A stretch of DNA of 64,000 nt from a virus. The notes beneath the pieces were generated by a model. That model had not been told where the DNA came from and did no database searches. It saw nothing but the letters and a program-made list of their open reading frames with translations. Positions within the stretch are counted from its first letter, which is position 1; each line of letters starts with the position of its first letter. The stretch covers positions 1 through 64,000 of the IMG/VR virus record IMGVR_UViG_3300022699_000217; one strand, 5' to 3'. This document shows positions 6,227 through 55,059 of this stretch, one piece after another. A program made the translations under genes and the position numbers.

Positions 6227-6748
6227 ATGATCACAGCAGCAAGACTGAAAGCGTATAACCCTCGGATGGGGAGCAGGATGCGGTCGTACACCAGCGCTCG
6301 GGGCAACCGCTATGTCGCGGGCGACGGCGTGGTTCCCAGCCCGTGGCGGCTTGTGAAAAACCAGGCGGAAATCGCGGAGATCACGGCGATGCCGCAGTTC
6401 GAGATCCGGCAGTTTGAGGATCAGGCGCATTTCGAGGCCCATATCATCAACGAGATGGAAGCGGACGTCCGGCTGGGCCGACCAGCGGTCCGCGCATCGG
6501 TGCACCGGGACGAGGCCGTTATCCCCATGAGCCGGGAGGCGGACGAGGCGCGCAAGGCGGACGCGAAGGAAGAGGCCGTGCGGCGCGCGTCCCAGCTTCT
6601 GCGCCCGACCCCGGTCGGCGATCCGGTCGTGGCGCCCGAGCCCGAGCCGGAGCCGGAGCCCGTGTCGATGAAGGCCGAGGAGCCGGAGCCAGCGCCCGAG
6701 CCGAAGAAGAGCAAGCGGTCCCCGGCACGGCGGAAGAAGAAAGCTTGA
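6227..6748 (+). CDS. small head-module protein with basic tail, 173 aa
   Basis: The N-terminal region contains NRYVAGDGVVPSPWRLVKNQ and MPQFEIRQF, a pattern seen in small phage proteins between capsid and connector genes. A proline-glutamate run (about residues 138-160, EPEPEPEP) follows, and then a strongly basic end, KSKRSPARRKKKA, which could touch DNA or RNA. No enzyme motif is visible. A role inside the head or at the portal is possible but not shown. Confidence 0.6.
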   Translation: MITAARLKAYNPRMGSRMRSYTSARGNRYVAGDGVVPSPWRLVKNQAEIAEITAMPQFEIRQFEDQAHFEAHIINEMEADVRLGRPAVRASVHRDEAVIPMSREADEARKADAKEEAVRRASQLLRPTPVGDPVVAPEPEPEPEPVSMKAEEPEPAPEPKKSKRSPARRKKKA

Positions 6749-44113: not shown

Positions 44114-44293
44114 ATGCGCGGAGTAAAAGTAGGTGACTGGGTCGAATTCAAGTATGACATCGAGCAATCCGCTAAAGTCGAGAAGATTGCAAACGGTCGT
44201 ATCTATGTTCGTGCCTATGAAGGCGACTACGTTAACAACCAAACTGGCACAGTGATCTCGCTGCGTTTCGGCGAGTTCGAGGTCGTCGATTAG
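44114..44293 (+). CDS. small protein with an SH3/KOW-like look, 59 aa
   Basis: Starts ATGCGCGGAGTA after AACGGAGAAAACA and ends at the TAG at 44291. The product, MRGVKVGDWVEFKYDIEQSA followed by KVEKIANGRIYVRAYEGDYV, is beta-rich with VGDWVEF near the start, as in small barrel (SH3-like) domains that bind nucleic acid or protein. The stop codon lies inside a 56-bp exact repeat. No family is assigned with confidence. Confidence 0.7.
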   Translation: MRGVKVGDWVEFKYDIEQSAKVEKIANGRIYVRAYEGDYVNNQTGTVISLRFGEFEVVD

Positions 44294-44346
44294 TTATGAT
44301 CGCATCGAGCGCAAGAAACGATCTTGCGCTTCATTGTGCTCATAAC
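44291..44346 (+). repeat. 56-bp exact direct repeat with nested hairpins, copy 1
   Basis: Identical over 56 bases to 44568-44623; both copies begin with the TAG stop codon of the preceding gene. It folds as an outer 7-bp stem (GTTATGA 44293-44299 with TCATAAC 44340-44346) enclosing an inner 8-bp stem (AGCGCAAG 44308-44315 with CTTGCGCT 44323-44330). It is followed by AACCCAAA and a ribosome-binding site. Confidence 0.92.
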
Positions 44347-44378: not shown

Positions 44379-44570
44379 ATGGAAAAAGCTATGAAAGAAA
44401 TAATCGACCTGCTCGCTGATGTACAAGACCTGGACGCACAAACAATCGGGGAATATATCCAAGATATTTTCATGGATAATGAAATAACACGTATCGAAGT
44501 TGACAAGTTAGATAGCTCCACGTTCGCACTGTTCGATGGGGAAAAGCGCATCCACGTGACGGTCAAGTAG
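44379..44570 (+). CDS. small acidic protein, 63 aa
   Basis: MEKAMKEIIDLLADVQDLDA, then a middle with QTIGEYIQDIFMDNEITRIE and a beta-strand end (STFALFDGEKRIHVTVK). It is strongly acidic with a helical first half. The ATG follows ACGGAGAAAAAACA, the same leader pattern as the gene at 44114. Small acidic early phage proteins often inhibit host enzymes, but nothing specific supports that here. Confidence 0.65.
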   Translation: MEKAMKEIIDLLADVQDLDAQTIGEYIQDIFMDNEITRIEVDKLDSSTFALFDGEKRIHVTVK

Positions 44571-44623
44571 TTATGATCGCATCGAGCGCAAGAAACGATC
44601 TTGCGCTTCATTGTGCTCATAAC
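44568..44623 (+). repeat. 56-bp exact direct repeat with nested hairpins, copy 2
   Basis: Second identical copy, again starting with the stop codon of the preceding gene. Outer stem 44570-44576 with 44617-44623; inner stem 44585-44592 with 44600-44607. It is followed by AACCCAAA (44630-44637) and a 12-base palindrome, GCCCTTAAGGGC (44640-44651), before AAGGAG. Confidence 0.92.
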
Positions 44624-45992: not shown

Positions 45993-46102
45993 CGGAGTTT
46001 GAGTATGTCGTGGTTCACTTAGATCGAGACGAGTTTTTGCCAACCCAAACCGCCCTGGAGATACTCGAGGGCTTCGAGGAGAACCCCTATGACGAGCGAT
46101 AA
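45989..46102 (+). CDS. very small acidic protein, 37 aa
   Basis: MTEFEYVVVHLDRDEFLPTQ then TALEILEGFEENPYDER. The start ATG overlaps the upstream stop (ATGA), and its own end overlaps the next start by 14 bases, a typical pattern of coupled phage genes. Function unknown. Confidence 0.55.
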   Translation: MTEFEYVVVHLDRDEFLPTQTALEILEGFEENPYDER

Positions 46103-47018
46103 CATCCTATCCGCACTAACAGCTCCCAAGGAGGGCACCCATCTTGGCGACCTATGCGGCTGGTCCTTGCACGGTACGTTCGACCGGGAGACAGTCGAGC
46201 AGGCCACCGAGCAGCTCGGCCTCGAAAACGACTTTCAGTTGCCGCGCCTGACAGCGGTCAACGCCTATCGCCGCGCAGCCGTAGAGGCGTGTAAGGACGC
46301 CGCGCGCCAAGACCAGCGTGGATGGTCCGCGGAGCTTGTGCAGAACGACGAGGACTACATCGTCCACGAGCTGGTAAGGAAGCAAATAAAGAGCGGCGGT
46401 AACTCGGCGTTGACAGACAAGACAACGGAATTCGCGTCAGAGACGAGAATCCGCTTTGACAAGATCGGATACCGCGCTGGGCGGTCCCCGGAAACGCTCG
46501 TGGAGCTCGAGCACCCAAGCCACCCGATGGCAGCTCGTGCCGCTCAGTTGTTCGTCGAGTATCTCACGAAGTTCCGCGCGAACGACATTCGCTCCGGCTT
46601 CCAGCGGGCGTTTGAGACGTGGGACGGAATGCGCGTCCTCGAGCACGGTGGCTTATGGGTCATCCCATCGCCCCACGCGGAAAAGGTTCGCGCGTGGAAG
46701 GAGTGGCTGCATCGGCTTGGATGCAGTAGCATTATCATTCCGGTCTTCGACACCGAGGAGACCATCGCGTCCATGCGGGCGATGGCCGAGGATAACTTGG
46801 AGGGCCAGCTTGCGCGCATCTTGGGCGAGCTGGAGTCCTTCAGCACGAAGGAGAACACGCGAGTCAGCACGCTGGAATCGCGCCTCGAATCCTTTGATAC
46901 GCTCCGCTCGAAAACGGAGATGTATGAAAGGTTACTCGGGATGAAGATGGAAGCGCTCAAAACCCGCCTGAGCACGGCCGCTTCGTCCCTAAAGTCGTCA
47001 CTCGCCAGTCTTGGTTAG
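46089..47018 (+). CDS. DUF6744-like protein, 309 aa
   Basis: The region LEHPSHPMAARAAQLFVEYL followed by FRANDIRSGFQRAFETWDGM, VLEHGGLWVIPSPHAEKVRA and IIPVFDTEETIASMRAMAED resembles the DUF6744 pattern seen in phages, plasmids and mobile islands, often near AAA+ genes (family match from memory). A coiled coil occupies the last 70 residues (RVSTLESRLESFDTLRSKTE). Immediately followed by MoxR-type and VWA genes, it is likely part of the same functional cassette (inference). Confidence 0.6.
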   Translation: MTSDNILSALTAPKEGTHLGDLCGWSLHGTFDRETVEQATEQLGLENDFQLPRLTAVNAYRRAAVEACKDAARQDQRGWSAELVQNDEDYIVHELVRKQIKSGGNSALTDKTTEFASETRIRFDKIGYRAGRSPETLVELEHPSHPMAARAAQLFVEYLTKFRANDIRSGFQRAFETWDGMRVLEHGGLWVIPSPHAEKVRAWKEWLHRLGCSSIIIPVFDTEETIASMRAMAEDNLEGQLARILGELESFSTKENTRVSTLESRLESFDTLRSKTEMYERLLGMKMEALKTRLSTAASSLKSSLASLG

Positions 47019-47031
47019 TGTCGACCCTTCC

Positions 47032-47096
47032 CCCGCGTCCGTTCGCGGGCGCTCCTGAGTGGCTCACGCGTGGGCCGTTCAGGTGTTCTCGCGAAC
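47032..47096 (+). other. tandem hairpins before the MoxR gene
   Basis: CCCGCG/CGCGGG (47032-47049, loop TCCGTT) is followed by a two-tier hairpin: CCTGA (47054-47058) with TCAGG (47079-47083), inner GGCTCA/TGGGCC. A small GTTC/GAAC stem (47085-47096) comes next, then AAACCCACAA and TAGGAG. Same leader style as upstream genes. Confidence 0.7.
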
Positions 47097-47124
47097 AAAC
47101 AAACCCACAACATAGGAGAACGGC

Positions 47125-48333
47125 ATGAACAAGTCACAACTGAAGGCCCTGGATGATTTTATAAACAGAGATGAGATCACCGCGTTGGAAAACGCGCGGA
47201 AGCGCTTGGCTGCTGGGCGCGCCTCTTTGGAAGCCCGGTTCTTGGAGCGAGAGAAGGAGATCCGAGGGCTGCTCGTATCGGCCTTGTCCGGCACCCACCC
47301 GCTGCTCCTTGGCCCCCCGGGGACCGGCAAGTCGGCGCTCGTCAACGCCTTCGCCGAGCTGCTCGGCGCTGGCACGTTCTCGCTCCTGCTAACCAAGTAC
47401 ACCACCCCCGAGGAGGTGTTCGGCCCTGTGGACATCCAGGCGATGAAGAATGGGAGCTATCGTCGTCGCGTTAACGGGCGTGCCTGGGATAGCGAGGTCG
47501 TGTTCATGGACGAGATCTTCAAGGCGTCCAGCTCGATTCTCAACTCGCTGCTCACGCTCATGCAGGAGCGTGTCGCCGACAACGATGGCCGCGTGTCCGT
47601 GCCGCTTGAGGTGCTGGTCGGGGCGTCCAACGAGTACCCGGCGGACAGCTCGCTCGATGCGTTGTTCGACCGCTTCTCGTGCAAGTATTGGGTCGACTAC
47701 ATCGGGCAGGCCCAAAACATGCGGTCGCTCCTGCTTGCCGGCGGCGCGGGGAGCACGACCGTGACGTTGGAGCCCAACGATCTTGCCGCGCTCCGGGATG
47801 CCGTCAACGCCGTGCCGTTCGGGCCGCGTGAGGCCGAGCTGCTCCTGGGCGTGAAAGCTGCCGTCGAGGACGCCGGGTTCTATCCGAGTGATCGAACCTG
47901 GGTCAAATCGATTGCGCTGCTACGTGCAAGCGCCGTGCTCGAGGGGCGCGACACCATCGCAACCAACGACTTCCGCATGCTCGCGGATGTGCTTTGGAAT
48001 AAGCACGATGATCGCCCCAAGCTGATGGAGGTCATCGGGAACGCGGCCGACCCCTACGGTAGCCGCGCGGAAGCCATTATCGACGGCATCAAGCTTGCTC
48101 TTCGCGAGATGCCGGACTTTCAAATCGTCGAGTCTGGGCAGATGACCAAGGTCAAAGCTCAGGAGGTGCTCGTCGGCGTCAACAAGAAGCTGATGAAGGA
48201 AGTGGATAAGCTGACCCGGCTCGAGAATGAAGCCGCAGATCATCCGGACGTGCAAGCGCTCCGCGAGAAGGCGAAAGCCGCGATGAAAACATTCGACGAG
48301 TTCAACGACAAGCTGCTTTGGTTCAGAGGGTAG
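47125..48333 (+). CDS. MoxR/RavA-type AAA+ ATPase, 402 aa
   Basis: Walker A GPPGTGKS (63-70), KYTTPEEVFGP (91-101, diagnostic of the RavA/MoxR group), Walker B VVFMDE (125-130), sensor-1 GASNE (166-170) and FDRF with the arginine finger region (181-184). The C-terminal part contains a lid domain and a helical tail (MKEVDKLTRLENEAADHPDV). MoxR ATPases act as chaperones with VWA partners; the next gene encodes one. It is expected to act in the cytoplasm as a hexamer. Its presence in a phage suggests remodelling of host or virion factors. Confidence 0.88.
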   Translation: MNKSQLKALDDFINRDEITALENARKRLAAGRASLEARFLEREKEIRGLLVSALSGTHPLLLGPPGTGKSALVNAFAELLGAGTFSLLLTKYTTPEEVFGPVDIQAMKNGSYRRRVNGRAWDSEVVFMDEIFKASSSILNSLLTLMQERVADNDGRVSVPLEVLVGASNEYPADSSLDALFDRFSCKYWVDYIGQAQNMRSLLLAGGAGSTTVTLEPNDLAALRDAVNAVPFGPREAELLLGVKAAVEDAGFYPSDRTWVKSIALLRASAVLEGRDTIATNDFRMLADVLWNKHDDRPKLMEVIGNAADPYGSRAEAIIDGIKLALREMPDFQIVESGQMTKVKAQEVLVGVNKKLMKEVDKLTRLENEAADHPDVQALREKAKAAMKTFDEFNDKLLWFRG

Positions 48334-48342
48334 GAGGAAACG

Positions 48343-49800
48343 ATGCCACTATACGATGTGAGCGACTACGAAAAAAATCAGTGGCGCTATCAGCGCCGCA
48401 CGAGCGACGCCCACGCCCACGTCGTCAACGCGGGTGAGCGTCGGTACAAGGGGTTCGACCGCTTCAGCGAGGAGGTGTTCCACAAGTTCATCTCGCCGAC
48501 GCCGAGGCCGGTCGAGCACCCCGATCCCGGGCAAGAGATCTTCCAGCGATTGCACAGTGCGATGGACGCCGTCCCCGAGGTACAAGACCTCCGGGAGCGG
48601 TGCATCCATGACGAGGACACCTCCGCGCAGGCAACAAACGCTATTATCCAGGAGCTGCTCAGCAAGACGGACGCCCCAAGCGAGCAGGTCCCGAGCAGCG
48701 AGGATGACCTGGAGGCGCTCCGTGCGATGGAAAGCTTCCTGCGGCGGCGCGAGGAAGCCAACGCCCCGCAGGAGACCATCGATAAGATCCGCGAGGAGAT
48801 CGAGCGTCTTTCGATGCAAGCGGCGGAGCACGCCCATCGCGCCAAGCACATCGCCGAAGACATGGACGACACCAATATCCGAGCGGCCATTCGTGCCGGC
48901 GCGAAAGCCGCCAACGAAGCCATCGATGCCGAGGCGAATGCATTCGACGCGTTCCCAGGCGATTTGTCGCACAGTGGCAAGAAGCTGCGGCGGGCGGCCT
49001 CGGCTAGCATCGCCGATGTTTTGAAAAACAACGCCCGCCTCGCGGAGATCATCAAACGCGCCGGTCGGTTGCGTCGCATCGCCCTCGACGAACAGCGCAA
49101 AAAGCCCCGTCGGGGCGTCGACGAATACTGCGGCATTGAGCGTGGAGCAGATCTTGAGCGGCTCGTGCCATCTGAATGGGTAACAGCAGACGACCCCGAC
49201 TTGGATGTGTTGTTCTACCGCAGCATGAACGAGCGCTCGTTGGCGCAGTTCGAGATCACCGCACGGCAGAAGGAGCAGCAAGGACCTATCGTGTTCCTGC
49301 TCGATAGCTCCGGTTCCATGCGGTACAACCAAGCGGATGCGTGGGCGGCAGCGGTGTGCATGGCGTTCATGCAGGTCGCTATCCTGCAGAAGCGCTCGTT
49401 TGCCATCGTTCACTTTGGCAGCGGGGTTCTTCGAACGGACGTGTTCCCCAAAGGCGAGGCGGTTGATCATGCGAAGATCGCAGACGCGGTTTCGTTCTTC
49501 GCCTCCGATGGCGGAACCAACTTCATGGACACCATCGACGAAGCGTCCAAGATAATAGAGCAAGAAGGCTTCAAAAAAGCAGACATCGTGATGTGTACAG
49601 ACGGGCAAGCATACATCTCCGATGAGTGGCTTGGGCGGTTCCTGGAACAGAAGAAGGAGCGTGACTTTTCGATGTATAGCATCCTGGTCGGGCCGGAGGT
49701 GTCCTCGTCTGTAAACGAACGCTTCTCGGATGAGACCGTCCACCTCAGGGAGATGCTCGACGGCGATGAGGCCATGCATTCCTTCTTCCGGAAGGTCTGA
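48343..49800 (+). CDS. VWA-domain protein (ViaA-like), 485 aa
   Basis: Residues 314-485 form a VWA domain with an intact MIDAS: IVFLLDSSGSMRYN (D321-S325), a later DGGTNFMD threonine and the MCTDGQAYIS aspartate. The preceding segment LERLVPSEWVTADDPDLDVL to MNERSLAQFEITARQKEQQG is like the linker of ViaA-type proteins. The N-terminal 250 residues are helical, with coiled coils (SFLRRREEANAPQETIDKIR). Directly downstream of the MoxR-type ATPase gene, it forms the usual ATPase-VWA pair. Confidence 0.88.
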   Translation: MPLYDVSDYEKNQWRYQRRTSDAHAHVVNAGERRYKGFDRFSEEVFHKFISPTPRPVEHPDPGQEIFQRLHSAMDAVPEVQDLRERCIHDEDTSAQATNAIIQELLSKTDAPSEQVPSSEDDLEALRAMESFLRRREEANAPQETIDKIREEIERLSMQAAEHAHRAKHIAEDMDDTNIRAAIRAGAKAANEAIDAEANAFDAFPGDLSHSGKKLRRAASASIADVLKNNARLAEIIKRAGRLRRIALDEQRKKPRRGVDEYCGIERGADLERLVPSEWVTADDPDLDVLFYRSMNERSLAQFEITARQKEQQGPIVFLLDSSGSMRYNQADAWAAAVCMAFMQVAILQKRSFAIVHFGSGVLRTDVFPKGEAVDHAKIADAVSFFASDGGTNFMDTIDEASKIIEQEGFKKADIVMCTDGQAYISDEWLGRFLEQKKERDFSMYSILVGPEVSSSVNERFSDETVHLREMLDGDEAMHSFFRKV

Positions 49801-49809
49801 ATTGACAAT

Positions 49810-49841
49810 CCCTTGGCGGCTAGGCTCACGGTCGCCAAGGG
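49810..49841 (+). other. 9-bp perfect hairpin after the VWA gene
   Basis: CCCTTGGCG (49810-49818) pairs perfectly with CGCCAAGGG (49833-49841), loop of 14 bases. The bases after it (CTTGCCTTTTAG) give only a weak T-tract, so terminator strength is uncertain. A smaller TAGCGC/GCGCACTA-like palindrome follows near 49851-49865. Confidence 0.7.
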
Positions 49842-49902: not shown

Positions 49903-50181
49903 ATGGGCACAGCAACAAACAAGCGCCGCGCCAACGCGCGGATAAACCACCTTTACGCGAACATCGATGTGATTCTCGCAAAAAAGGGTTGGCGGATGAT
50001 CGATCTTGCTCGAGAGATGGGCGTATCAGCCCCGACACTCCGTGGGATTCTCGTCCGTGGGCGGCCTCGTAACGGCACGCTCCTGCGCCTGGCGAAAGCG
50101 CTGGGCGTCGACATCGAAGATCTCGTGATGGCGTCATCCCCCGAGGAGTACGGCGCCGCCATGATCCCCCGTATCCACTAA
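49903..50181 (+). CDS. XRE-type helix-turn-helix regulator, 92 aa
   Basis: The core NIDVILAKKGWRMIDLAREM followed by GVSAPTLRGILVRGRPRNGT and LLRLAKALGVDIEDLV fits a Cro/CI-type (XRE) HTH domain of about 55 residues. The N-terminus is basic. ATG 49903 follows GAGGAGAACCCA. It is the only clear transcription-regulator gene in the window. Likely operator targets include the hairpin-rich leaders nearby or the 43468-44113 region, but this is a guess. Confidence 0.75.
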   Translation: MGTATNKRRANARINHLYANIDVILAKKGWRMIDLAREMGVSAPTLRGILVRGRPRNGTLLRLAKALGVDIEDLVMASSPEEYGAAMIPRIH

Positions 50182-50297: not shown

Positions 50298-51503
50298 ATG
50301 AGCGAACTGCAATGGCACGCCTGGCGCAAGCCAGGCATCGGCGCTAGCGAAGCGCCCGTCGTTTATCTGGGGCGCGTGTTCAACTCCACGCGGATGTCGC
50401 TGTACATCAAGAAGGTTTCGACCGAGCCCCCGCAAGTCAACACGGACGACAACCCCAACTTCCGGCGCGGCCACATGTATGAGCCGCTTGCCGCGACGCG
50501 ATTTACCGAGAAGACCGGCATCCAAGCGCACTACCCCGCAGACGACGCGGAACGATATGGGCCGCGTTATTGCTTGGAGGATCCCGACCACCCGCATCGT
50601 CATGCTTCGCTGGATGCCATCTGCGACGACGGATGGATCCTCGAGGTAAAATCGCCCAAGCAAATCACGTGCGACAAAATCAGATCGGAAGGGCTGAAGG
50701 ACTACTATCAAGTCCAAGCCGCGTATCAAGCGGCCATCGCGCAGAAGGTCGGCACGTTCGCTTGGGGTCCTGGGGAATGCAAGGGCGTCCGACTCTGCAT
50801 CTGGGAGCCAGAAAACGCCGACACCATGGTCATCGAGCTCCCTTACGACGAGGAGCTGAGTCAACTCGTAGTCGAGTCGGTCGATGACTTTTGGAATGAG
50901 CATGTTTCCAAGAACGAGCCGCCGATTGATGATCCGGCTCCTCCGTTTGTGAAGAGCAAGGGCGGCAAGTACCAGCATTGTTCCGACCCTGCGTTTATCG
51001 AGGCGTCCCAAAAGTTTGTCGTCTCCAAGGATGCCTTCGAGGCGGCCAAGATGCGGCTCGATATGGCCAAGGGGCAGCTCGTGGAGATGATGGATCAAGC
51101 CAACATGGATCGCATCCAGCTCCCGAGCGGCATCAAGTTCTTACGGAGCGAGCAGGAAGGGCGCAAGTCGCTGGATCTGGAGTTCCTCCTACACGAGCAC
51201 CCGAACATCGACATCGAGCGATACCAAAAGAAAGGACACCCGTTCAAAACGTTCCGCGTCTACGGCGTCAACAAAGTGGAGCGCGACGGCGATGACATGG
51301 AGCTATCCGGGCTCTCCATCGAGCTAGCCCAGTTTGTCAAGGAGCAGCACGACCCAGAGCTTCTTTTCGAGGCGTTCGATGACCTGCGGAGCCGCACCGA
51401 GATCTACACCCGCACGCTCGTGAACGAAGCGGAGGCCCTGGAGCAGCAACTCAAGCACGCCGCCAAGGTGTGCAAGGAAAAAGTCTTTGGAGGTTCATTG
51501 TGA
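50298..51503 (+). CDS. YqaJ/lambda-exonuclease-type recombinase, 401 aa
   Basis: N-terminal GASEAPVVYLGR (about residues 15-26), GHMYEPLAATRFTEKTGI (about 57-74), HASLDAICDDGWILEVKSPK (the D..EVK metal site, about 102-121) and YYQVQAAYQAAIAQ (about 134-147) are the motifs of the YqaJ/PD-(D/E)XK exonuclease family. The C-terminal part includes a coiled coil and an acidic region. It should degrade one strand from DNA ends and pass ssDNA to the Erf-like annealase encoded next. ATG 50298 follows AAAGAGGTGACC. Confidence 0.85.
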   Translation: MSELQWHAWRKPGIGASEAPVVYLGRVFNSTRMSLYIKKVSTEPPQVNTDDNPNFRRGHMYEPLAATRFTEKTGIQAHYPADDAERYGPRYCLEDPDHPHRHASLDAICDDGWILEVKSPKQITCDKIRSEGLKDYYQVQAAYQAAIAQKVGTFAWGPGECKGVRLCIWEPENADTMVIELPYDEELSQLVVESVDDFWNEHVSKNEPPIDDPAPPFVKSKGGKYQHCSDPAFIEASQKFVVSKDAFEAAKMRLDMAKGQLVEMMDQANMDRIQLPSGIKFLRSEQEGRKSLDLEFLLHEHPNIDIERYQKKGHPFKTFRVYGVNKVERDGDDMELSGLSIELAQFVKEQHDPELLFEAFDDLRSRTEIYTRTLVNEAEALEQQLKHAAKVCKEKVFGGSL

Positions 51504-52186
51504 AAAAGAGCGAACAGATCAACGAGCTGTCAGCAGCGCTTTCCGCCTTCCAGGGCGAGATCAAGGACGCGGTCAAATCCAACGAAGGGTATGGCTACAA
51601 CTATGCCAACCTCTCGGACATCTTGATCATCGCCAGGCCGCTTCTTGCCAAGAATGGCCTTGCGCTTATCCAGCTCGCCGCCAACGCCCCCGAGATCGAG
51701 GGGCATAACGGAACCAAGATTCAGCAGGTTGCCGTGGAGACCATCCTGACCCACAAGAGCGGGCAATGGATCTCCGAGGTCTACGCGATGCCCATTGAGC
51801 GCAAGATTAGCAACAAGGGCAAGGAGACTCTTTCGCTTGCTCAGTGTGTCGGCGTGACCATCACGTACTGTCGGCGCTACGCCGCAAGCGCCATCCTCGG
51901 GATGACGCAGACGGACAACGACGCCAGCGTGGTCGACTTCGTCACCGGCGCGGAGCTAAAGAAGCTCAAGGACATGGTTTCTAAAACCAACTCCGACATC
52001 GCCCTGGTGTGCCGGCACTGCGGCATCGATGAGATCGAGGACATCTCCCATGAGAATTTCGTCCGCGTCATGGACATGCTGTCGCGCAAGGCGTCCGTCA
52101 AAACCGATGCGCAATCTGCGACCGAAACCAAAACGGAATCACTCAAGGAGCTGGGACGCAAGGCGAAGGAATCCAAACAGGAATAG
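51500..52186 (+). CDS. erf: Erf-type single-strand annealing protein, 228 aa
   Basis: A GTG start at 51500, overlapping the upstream stop and with GGAGG upstream, is chosen over an in-frame start at 51470. The Erf signature is GYGYNYANLSDILIIARPLL at about residues 30-49 and QCVGVTITYCRRYAASAILG near 118-137, followed by TQTDNDAS. The C-terminal tail is acidic and Lys-rich (TETKTESLKELGRKAKESKQ), as in many ssDNA annealers. It pairs with the exonuclease for homologous recombination of phage DNA. Confidence 0.87.
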   Translation: MKKSEQINELSAALSAFQGEIKDAVKSNEGYGYNYANLSDILIIARPLLAKNGLALIQLAANAPEIEGHNGTKIQQVAVETILTHKSGQWISEVYAMPIERKISNKGKETLSLAQCVGVTITYCRRYAASAILGMTQTDNDASVVDFVTGAELKKLKDMVSKTNSDIALVCRHCGIDEIEDISHENFVRVMDMLSRKASVKTDAQSATETKTESLKELGRKAKESKQE

Positions 52187-53646: not shown

Positions 53647-55059
53647 ATGAATAAAGTACCGCCACATGATGCGCAAGCTGAACGCGCTTTGCTCGGATCG
53701 ACACTGATGGATAACAAGGTGCTTCTTCGCGTGGGGGGCATCGTTCAGCCGGAGGATTTCTACTACGAGCAGCATCGGCGCGTTTTTGCCGCGATGAAAG
53801 CGCTTTCATCCGCGAGGGAGCCTATCGACCCGGTCACGTTGGGAACGCGACTTCTCGAGAGCGGCGATCTTGAAAAGGTCGGCGGCGCGATGGCCATCAA
53901 CGATCTTCTGGATGGGACGGCGACAGCGGTAAACGCGGAGCACTATGCACGGAAGATCGCAGAGAAGGCGGTCGTTCGGCGGCTCCTGTACGCGGCATCC
54001 GAGGTCGTCGCAACCGCGTACAATGGATACGAGGATTTCAACGCCTTCGTCGCCGCAGCGCGGGAATCCATAGTCAAGGCGGCGGTGGCAACGCAAGACA
54101 CGGCGAACGCCCCGCGCAAAATCGACGAGGACCTGAAGGAAGCCTGGCGCAACATAACTGAGGGACGCGAGATGGAGGGCGTCATCAAGACAGGCATCGA
54201 TACCGTGGACAGGACAACCGGAGGATTGTTTCCGGGCCTGCTCACGGTGCTTGCCGGGCGGCCATCGATGGGGAAAAGCTGCGTCGGGCTGAACATCGCC
54301 ATCAACGTGGCGAAGCAGGGGAAAAAGGTGCTCCTCCTCACGATGGAGGACACGCGATACTTCGTGGTTCTGCGGCTGCTCGCGCGGTTTGCGGACATCG
54401 ATCTTCAGCGCCTAACGCTCAGCATGGCTGGTCGCGAGGACTACCCGTCCATCCTAAATGCCATCACCAAGCTGACGGACTTGCCGTTCTGGGTGGATGA
54501 TACGTCCGGATTGACCGTTGACCAGATCCGATCTAGGGTAGCAGCACACCGCGAGGAACACGGGCTTGACCTGCTCGTGGTGGACCACTTGCTGGAGATC
54601 GATGCCGACGCCGAGAACGAGACGCTTAAGGTCTCCAAGGCGGCGGCGGGCTCCAGGGATATAGCGAAGGAGCTGTACATCCCCGTCCTGCTATTACATC
54701 AGCTCAACCGTGGCGTTGAGCAGCGCTCGGACAAGCGCCCGATGCTGTCCGATCTGAAGCAGACCGGCAAGGTCGAGGAGGTCGCGCGGCAGGTCTGGTT
54801 TCTTTTCCGCCCATCGTACTACGACGGCGATGGTGATGAGAGTCGCCGGGATATTCAGTTGATCATCGCAAAGTCGAACCACGGTCGCACGGGGGTCGCG
54901 AAGCTATGGGGTGACTTGTCGCGGATGTACGTTCGTGGATGGTCTCGCGATGTTGACGGTGCATTCCCGGAAATCGATGCCATGGATGACCCAGCGGAAA
55001 GTAGTGGGAGCGCTAAACCGTGGACGCCGGTGTCCGCGTCACACCTAGCCGATTATTAG
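53647..55059 (+). CDS. dnaB: replicative DNA helicase (DnaB-type), 470 aa
   Basis: N-terminal DnaB domain: PPHDAQAERALLGSTLMDNK to FYYEQHRRVFAAMKAL. C-terminal RecA-like ATPase: Walker A GRPSMGKS at about residues 209-216, Walker B LLVVDH at about 311-316, then LHQLNRGVEQRSDKRPMLSD followed by LKQTGKVEE (DnaB signature) and KSNHGRTG. All key elements are present. It unwinds phage DNA after loading by the upstream initiator or by the host loader. Confidence 0.93.
   Translation: MNKVPPHDAQAERALLGSTLMDNKVLLRVGGIVQPEDFYYEQHRRVFAAMKALSSAREPIDPVTLGTRLLESGDLEKVGGAMAINDLLDGTATAVNAEHYARKIAEKAVVRRLLYAASEVVATAYNGYEDFNAFVAAARESIVKAAVATQDTANAPRKIDEDLKEAWRNITEGREMEGVIKTGIDTVDRTTGGLFPGLLTVLAGRPSMGKSCVGLNIAINVAKQGKKVLLLTMEDTRYFVVLRLLARFADIDLQRLTLSMAGREDYPSILNAITKLTDLPFWVDDTSGLTVDQIRSRVAAHREEHGLDLLVVDHLLEIDADAENETLKVSKAAAGSRDIAKELYIPVLLLHQLNRGVEQRSDKRPMLSDLKQTGKVEEVARQVWFLFRPSYYDGDGDESRRDIQLIIAKSNHGRTGVAKLWGDLSRMYVRGWSRDVDGAFPEIDAMDDPAESSGSAKPWTPVSASHLADY

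Follow-up and report, generated by a model that had tools for sequence, protein, structure and literature searches.

Phage MoxR-VWA machines

Pairs of a MoxR-type AAA+ ATPase and a VWA protein have been on record from tailed phages since 2007; no established client was found for them in the literature searched. Phage 0305phi8-36 encodes a MoxR-type two-subunit chaperonin, orf66/orf63 (PMC2147016), and further pairs are known in jumbo phages (PMC7824862) and haloviruses (PMC7911831), while bacterial ternary MoxR-vWA systems include other third proteins (PMC7159879). The known machines consist of an AAA+ ring coupled with a target-engaging VWA subunit; NorQD inserts a VWA finger into the ring pore, and a linker transmits force (PMC13036017). 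Described here is a trio of genes, for a protein of the DUF6744 family, a MoxR ATPase and a VWA protein, in 64,000 nucleotides of tailed-phage DNA (the window: positions 1-64,000 of the 94,753-base IMG/VR virus record IMGVR_UViG_3300022699_000217), whose DUF6744 member shares a C-terminal tail with a neighboring recombination exonuclease.

The described systems resemble this locus in different degrees. Moorella phage MTATph1 has genes of all three families, ordered as in the window (CDS0119-CDS0115-CDS0114, annotated as hypothetical, ATPase and hypothetical; DUF6744 E 5.6e-61), but three small open reading frames (ORFs) separate its DUF6744 and MoxR genes. 0305phi8-36 has a phage MoxR with a VWA-type partner, and the record presumed to be this phage also holds a DUF6744 homolog; however, the published description is of a two-subunit pair, the DUF6744 gene is about 11 kb distant, and no report of it was found. 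The jumbo-phage systems are likewise phage chaperone-cochaperone pairs, but their vWA forms a fusion with a metallopeptidase, and a third component is not named (PMC7824862). The ternary systems of Kaur et al. 2020 (PMC7159879) also combine MoxR, vWA and a third protein; at the window DUF6744 stands in place of VMAP, iSTAND, FtsH or beta-propeller proteins. E. coli RavA-ViaA shares a MoxR AAA+ core and an adjacent VWA partner, but the window has a new third partner and differs in family-specific regions considered below. NorQD and Rea1/MDN1 also join an AAA+ ring to a VWA module with a metal-ion-dependent adhesion site (MIDAS), and the window VWA model matches their VWA folds; their clients are other ones, however, Rea1 is a single giant chain, and the comparison concerns mechanism only.

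Three haloarchaeal Druskaviridae, HVTV-1 (gp25, L058:9815-10966), HCTV-5 and HCTV-1, carry a DUF6744 homolog together with AAA+ and VWA genes, but their AAA+ protein is CobS-like rather than RavA-type and DUF6744 is not adjacent to it (checked in HVTV-1). CobS/CobT-like genes are known in this family (PMC8651126) and were read directly in HVTV-1. Archaeal-virus CobST has been proposed to boost host cobalamin synthesis; for the CobST of viruses that also bear DUF6744, protein remodeling is an alternative role.

Conservation of the trio

A search with MoxR alone retrieved 20 virus records. In all 20 the strand that encodes MoxR also has a VWA gene, no more than about 2 kb away; a DUF6744 homolog lies in the locus stretch of 17 and elsewhere in the record for two more (19 of 20 in total), one of these two being the 218,948-base record presumed to be Bacillus phage 0305phi8-36. 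Searches from the other side agree: MoxR and VWA adjoin DUF6744 in 6 of 6 uncut loci found by a DUF6744-anchored search and in 9 of 9 found with a different DUF6744 subfamily, some DUF6744-anchored loci being the same records as in the MoxR-anchored search. Over 35 loci the gene order is DUF6744-MoxR-VWA in 26, MoxR-VWA-DUF6744 in five and MoxR-DUF6744-VWA in one, with the pair only in three; all three trio orders keep the genes on one strand. That gene order is shuffled yet linkage kept argues for a functional association of the trio, and a physical complex of MoxR, VWA and DUF6744 may be supposed from this genetic linkage. The trio is kept by nearly all members of the window's clade, and it occurs complete, beside dnaN, on a 137-kb plasmid of Alicyclobacillus sp. 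ALC3 (L127:7869-11446; annotated by NCBI), which may be a phage-plasmid; a gene for a single-stranded DNA-binding protein is found ~7 kb upstream of the trio on that plasmid. A first-pass annotation of the window had put forward DUF6744 as a third component of the system, a proposal that was to fall if a survey of gene neighborhoods found no co-occurrence of the three genes elsewhere. The trio recurs in such a survey, and the recurrence supports DUF6744 as third component.

DUF6744 is absent from 14 control bacterial and archaeal genomes, from T4, SPO1, phiKZ, lambda, E3, HHTV-2, HCTV-2, S-PM2 and P-SSM2, and from five phages with related tail-less exonucleases. On its absence from S-PM2 and P-SSM2, the idea that it accompanies CobST in cyanophages was rejected. 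A scan of GTDB for bacterial DUF6744 with clade-specific patterns found none, a weak negative given the narrowness of the patterns, and single-sequence viral scans with DUF6744 or YqaJ returned nothing, alignments being required for matches.

A C-terminal tail shared with the exonuclease

An iterated DUF6744 profile unexpectedly matched the C-terminus of the window's own YqaJ/RecE-type exonuclease. The two tails are 45% identical over 40 aa (BLASTP, E 7e-7) and share the motif F-D-x-L-R-x-(K/R)-x-E/D-x-Y. A model built from DUF6744 tails alone and run against 6,842 ORFs matched, besides DUF6744 proteins and YqaJ exonucleases, a single 240-aa protein and nothing else, and gave 0 matches against reversed or shuffled ORFs; in shuffles of four tails that preserved the hydrophobic pattern (~1,000 tries each) the real score was never reached. 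A generic coiled coil was discarded as the explanation, the match not being reproduced by any of these controls. This 240-aa protein, which has no assigned family, bears the tail in a third version and is encoded on the minus strand between YqaJ and RecT genes (L053:7114-7836, record G022); a protein in the structural half of the window (6227-6748) is weakly like its body (phmmer E 3.7e-4).

An exonuclease-anchored search gave 13 loci, and with the window's own exonuclease the tail is present on 13 of 14 (12 of the 13 found). The trio is present in all nine tail-bearing exonuclease loci whose retrieved stretch spans the upstream side. In the remaining locus, G033, the exonuclease ends before the tail while the YqaJ-RecT-DnaB gene series is kept, and neither DUF6744 nor MoxR was found on its 98-kb contig. 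Five further, more distant exonucleases from phages without the trio are all tail-less. In eight genomes the DUF6744 and YqaJ tails are 39% identical within a genome and 32% between genomes (P about 0.001, full permutation), as would follow from binding to a common partner or from exchange of sequence. The tail does not mark trio phages in general: outside the window's clade only DUF6744 itself carries it.

Components and organization of the locus

Coordinates are collected in Table 1. The three ORFs of the trio are intact, and the gaps between them are 106 bp (DUF6744-MoxR) and 9 bp (MoxR-VWA), with a ribosome-binding-like AGGAG upstream of the MoxR and VWA starts. Since a terminator-like hairpin directly follows the VWA stop, the trio seems to be transcribed as one unit, and judged from the sequence it is probably a single operon that ends at this hairpin. 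The trio starts ~3.5 kb after a structural block that includes the tape-measure protein, and it is followed in order by a helix-turn-helix (HTH) gene, the exonuclease, an Erf annealing protein and DnaB. It was earlier assigned to an early-type module; in support, the trio is located in a DNA-metabolism module and not among virion genes.

Table 1. Features of the trio locus in the window, with the evidence for each
Feature	Position	Strand	Evidence
DUF6744 protein, 309 aa	46089-47018	+	Pfam PF20529 E 7.8e-19, 68 bits vs cut-off 27
DUF6744 C-terminal helical tail, residues 266-305	46884-47003	+	BLASTP vs exonuclease tail; hidden Markov model (HMM) matches
MoxR-family AAA+ ATPase, 402 aa	47125-48333	+	Pfam bpMoxR 2e-47, AAA_5 5e-23, AAA_lid_8 6e-16; phrog_19600 6.7e-73
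Walker A GPPGTGKS, residues 63-70	47311-47334	+	sequence; kept in relatives
Walker B segment VVFMDEIF, D129/E130	47497-47520	+	sequence; kept in relatives
VWA protein, 485 aa	48343-49800	+	Pfam VWA_2 6.9e-9; phrog_24053 2.9e-42; model pLDDT 89
MIDAS motif DSSGS, residues 321-325	49303-49317	+	sequence; further MIDAS residues T392, D420
Terminator-like hairpin	49810-49841	+	12-pair stem, T-rich tail, just 3' of VWA stop; consensus match only
Cro/C1-type HTH gene	49903-50181	+	HTH_26 5.6e-10; likelier start ATG 49903, GAGGAG upstream
YqaJ/RecE-type exonuclease	50298-51503	+	YqaJ 3.2e-18, phrog_434 2.2e-39; start ATG 50298 likelier than TTG 50232 (context)
Exonuclease C-terminal tail, homologous to DUF6744 tail	51366-51485	+	BLASTP, HMM matches
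Erf-type single-strand annealing protein	51500-52186	+	ERF 3.1e-18; likely start GTG 51500, overlaps exonuclease stop
DnaB-type replicative helicase	53647-55059	+	DnaB_C 7.6e-60; module context

The first gene had been called DUF6744-like, and its product belongs to the family, exceeding the gathering cut-off and covering profile positions 17-300 of 314. A confident AlphaFold2 model (pLDDT 87, pTM 0.77) predicts a mixed alpha/beta body, after which come long helices at the C-terminal end. A fold search of the PDB with this model found no match (best E 0.15), and the only fold matches are uncharacterized viral models, one of them an HVTV-1 protein identified as gp25 by length and HMM. The family is not named in the literature searched.

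The MoxR protein has the AAA+ core, Walker A and B, an arginine finger and a MoxR-type lid, all three Pfam matches being above cut-off; sensor-1 N169, R183 and R257 are likewise in place and kept among relatives, in agreement with its first description as an intact ATPase. Its neighbor, also correctly taken to have an intact MIDAS, consists of a helical N-terminal region (about 1-255) and a VWA domain whose fold extends to the C-terminus, with no effector domain after it. Among 22 relatives D321, S325 and T392 are invariant, and S323 and D420 nearly so. By Foldseek the model matches the NorD VWA and the Rea1/MDN1 MIDAS; BURRH, which appeared in PDB sequence matches, was ignored as repeat-driven chance.

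Upstream of the trio the window has a 62-nt direct repeat, 97% identical between its copies (44285-44346 and 44562-44623), each with an inner inverted repeat GCGCAAG...CTTGCGC and with a small early gene that starts 30-45 nt downstream. The repeat could serve these genes as a common regulatory or promoter element.

Function of the trio

The recognizable genes among 142 neighboring ORFs at 19 diverse trio loci encode mainly RecU/Holliday-junction resolvases, helicases, ligases, primases, Sak4 and exonuclease, plus a small number of sugar-nucleotide and lysis functions; apart from two endolysin matches, there is no recurrent virion gene. dnaN adjoins the locus in Aphanizomenon phage CL131 and in Alicyclobacillus. 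The shared tail and these recombination- and replication-dominated neighbors favor a phage three-component MoxR machine that remodels phage DNA-recombination or replication proteins, with DUF6744 as adaptor and the exonuclease as client, a reading to which we give slightly less than an even chance. The MoxR ring would be the source of ATP-driven force and the VWA protein its MIDAS-bearing co-chaperone. The MIDAS of Rea1 binds adaptor proteins on its substrates, and by analogy with Rea1 and the known MoxR-VWA machines DUF6744 is proposed as a dedicated adaptor presented to the VWA subunit. Its helical tail, found also on the exonuclease and once on the protein in G022, would be a docking or co-assembly module that brings in, or co-assembles with, the exonuclease, and the machine may then load, displace or recycle the exonuclease-annealing complex. 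More tentatively, DUF6744 could be the mark of a virus-specific ternary MoxR-VWA class whose clients are tagged by the shared C-terminal helical tail, the exonuclease being the first clear client; AAA+ remodeling for phage DNA recombination would then be tag-directed.

Several observations weigh against such a recombination machine. CL131 has MoxR-VWA without DUF6744, and the Druskaviridae carry DUF6744 without a RavA-type MoxR (its absence checked in HVTV-1). Tail sharing with YqaJ is limited to the window's own clade: in the majority of distant trio phages YqaJ is not detectable, and in the one that has it, G020, it is a 308-aa protein without the tail. The same-clade tail-less control rests on a single contig, and the tail statistics come from eight related genomes. 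A short helical tail could also be a simple oligomerization element. At the CL131 locus (L002:758-5785) an LPD29 protein is encoded upstream of MoxR-VWA, with dnaN downstream, and the LPD29 protein is a possible alternative third partner.

A role in virion assembly, with the trio maturing tail or head proteins, has precedents in proposals for the jumbo-phage MoxR-vWA pairs (PMC7824862) and for the MoxR-VWA of Acidianus two-tailed virus (as cited in PMC7911831), and the trio is not far past the window's structural block. It is unlikely, however, in view of the neighborhoods dominated by DNA metabolism, the identity of the tail partner as an exonuclease, and a VWA protein on which no peptidase domain was matched by Pfam. 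Also improbable is a conflict or counter-defense system akin to those of Kaur et al., among which ternary MoxR-vWA sets whose third protein varies are a familiar theme (PMC7159879). The best Pfam match of the MoxR protein is indeed bpMoxR, but since this model picks up ordinary MoxR proteins as well, in 12 of the 14 control genomes, membership by name was rejected. The trait of an effector fused C-terminally to the vWA is lacking, Pfam found no VMAP, iSTAND, FtsH-type or beta-propeller third protein, and PADLOC models gave only marginal AAA or coiled-coil matches to the locus proteins (E 0.0018 or worse); the presence of the trio in nearly all clade members is unlike that of sporadic accessory genes.

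Metal-cofactor insertion or enzyme maturation in the manner of CbbQO, NorQD or CobST, for example of ribonucleotide reductase, would fit the known MoxR-VWA pairs, which insert metals or activate enzymes (PMC13036017). DUF6744 is near a ribonucleotide reductase gene in MTATph1 and HVTV-1, and 0305phi8-36 has both this enzyme and the MoxR pair (PMC2147016). The enzyme is, however, not a recurrent neighbor at the 19 loci, and the tail shared with the exonuclease is left unexplained, which makes maturation a rather doubtful account. Least probable by far is modulation of host respiratory or decarboxylase complexes in the manner of RavA-ViaA. The first-pass annotation had used the labels MoxR/RavA and ViaA-like and had pointed to such action on respiratory complexes, and E. 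coli RavA is in fact the closest solved AAA+ relative (E 1e-46). The alignment is nevertheless confined to the AAA+ core, residues 27-293, and stops at query 293-297 (about 289-291 of the 498-500 residues of RavA), so that the RavA C-terminal region with its LARA domain is unmatched. The NCBIfam equivalog models give 190 bits against a cut-off of 681 for RavA (NF010054) and 69 against 500 for ViaA (NF008230), the latter match being limited to residues 249-426 and the ViaA N-terminal region not matched. ViaA is not known to have a DUF6744 partner. With scores this far under the family cut-offs and the diagnostic extra regions missing, membership was rejected, the two labels are loose, and the respiratory role suggested with them is not supported.

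Implications

Neither DUF6744 as a conserved third MoxR-VWA partner nor the exonuclease tail is reported in the literature searched. DUF6744, an uncharacterized Pfam family for which no solved relative was found, thus gains a function-bearing context. The conserved third protein, and a module that it has in common with a recombination exonuclease, lead away from roles in virion assembly or host respiration and make the client question of these phage machines directly testable. If the remodeling of recombination proteins proposed here is true, a remodeling ATPase would be added to phage recombination.

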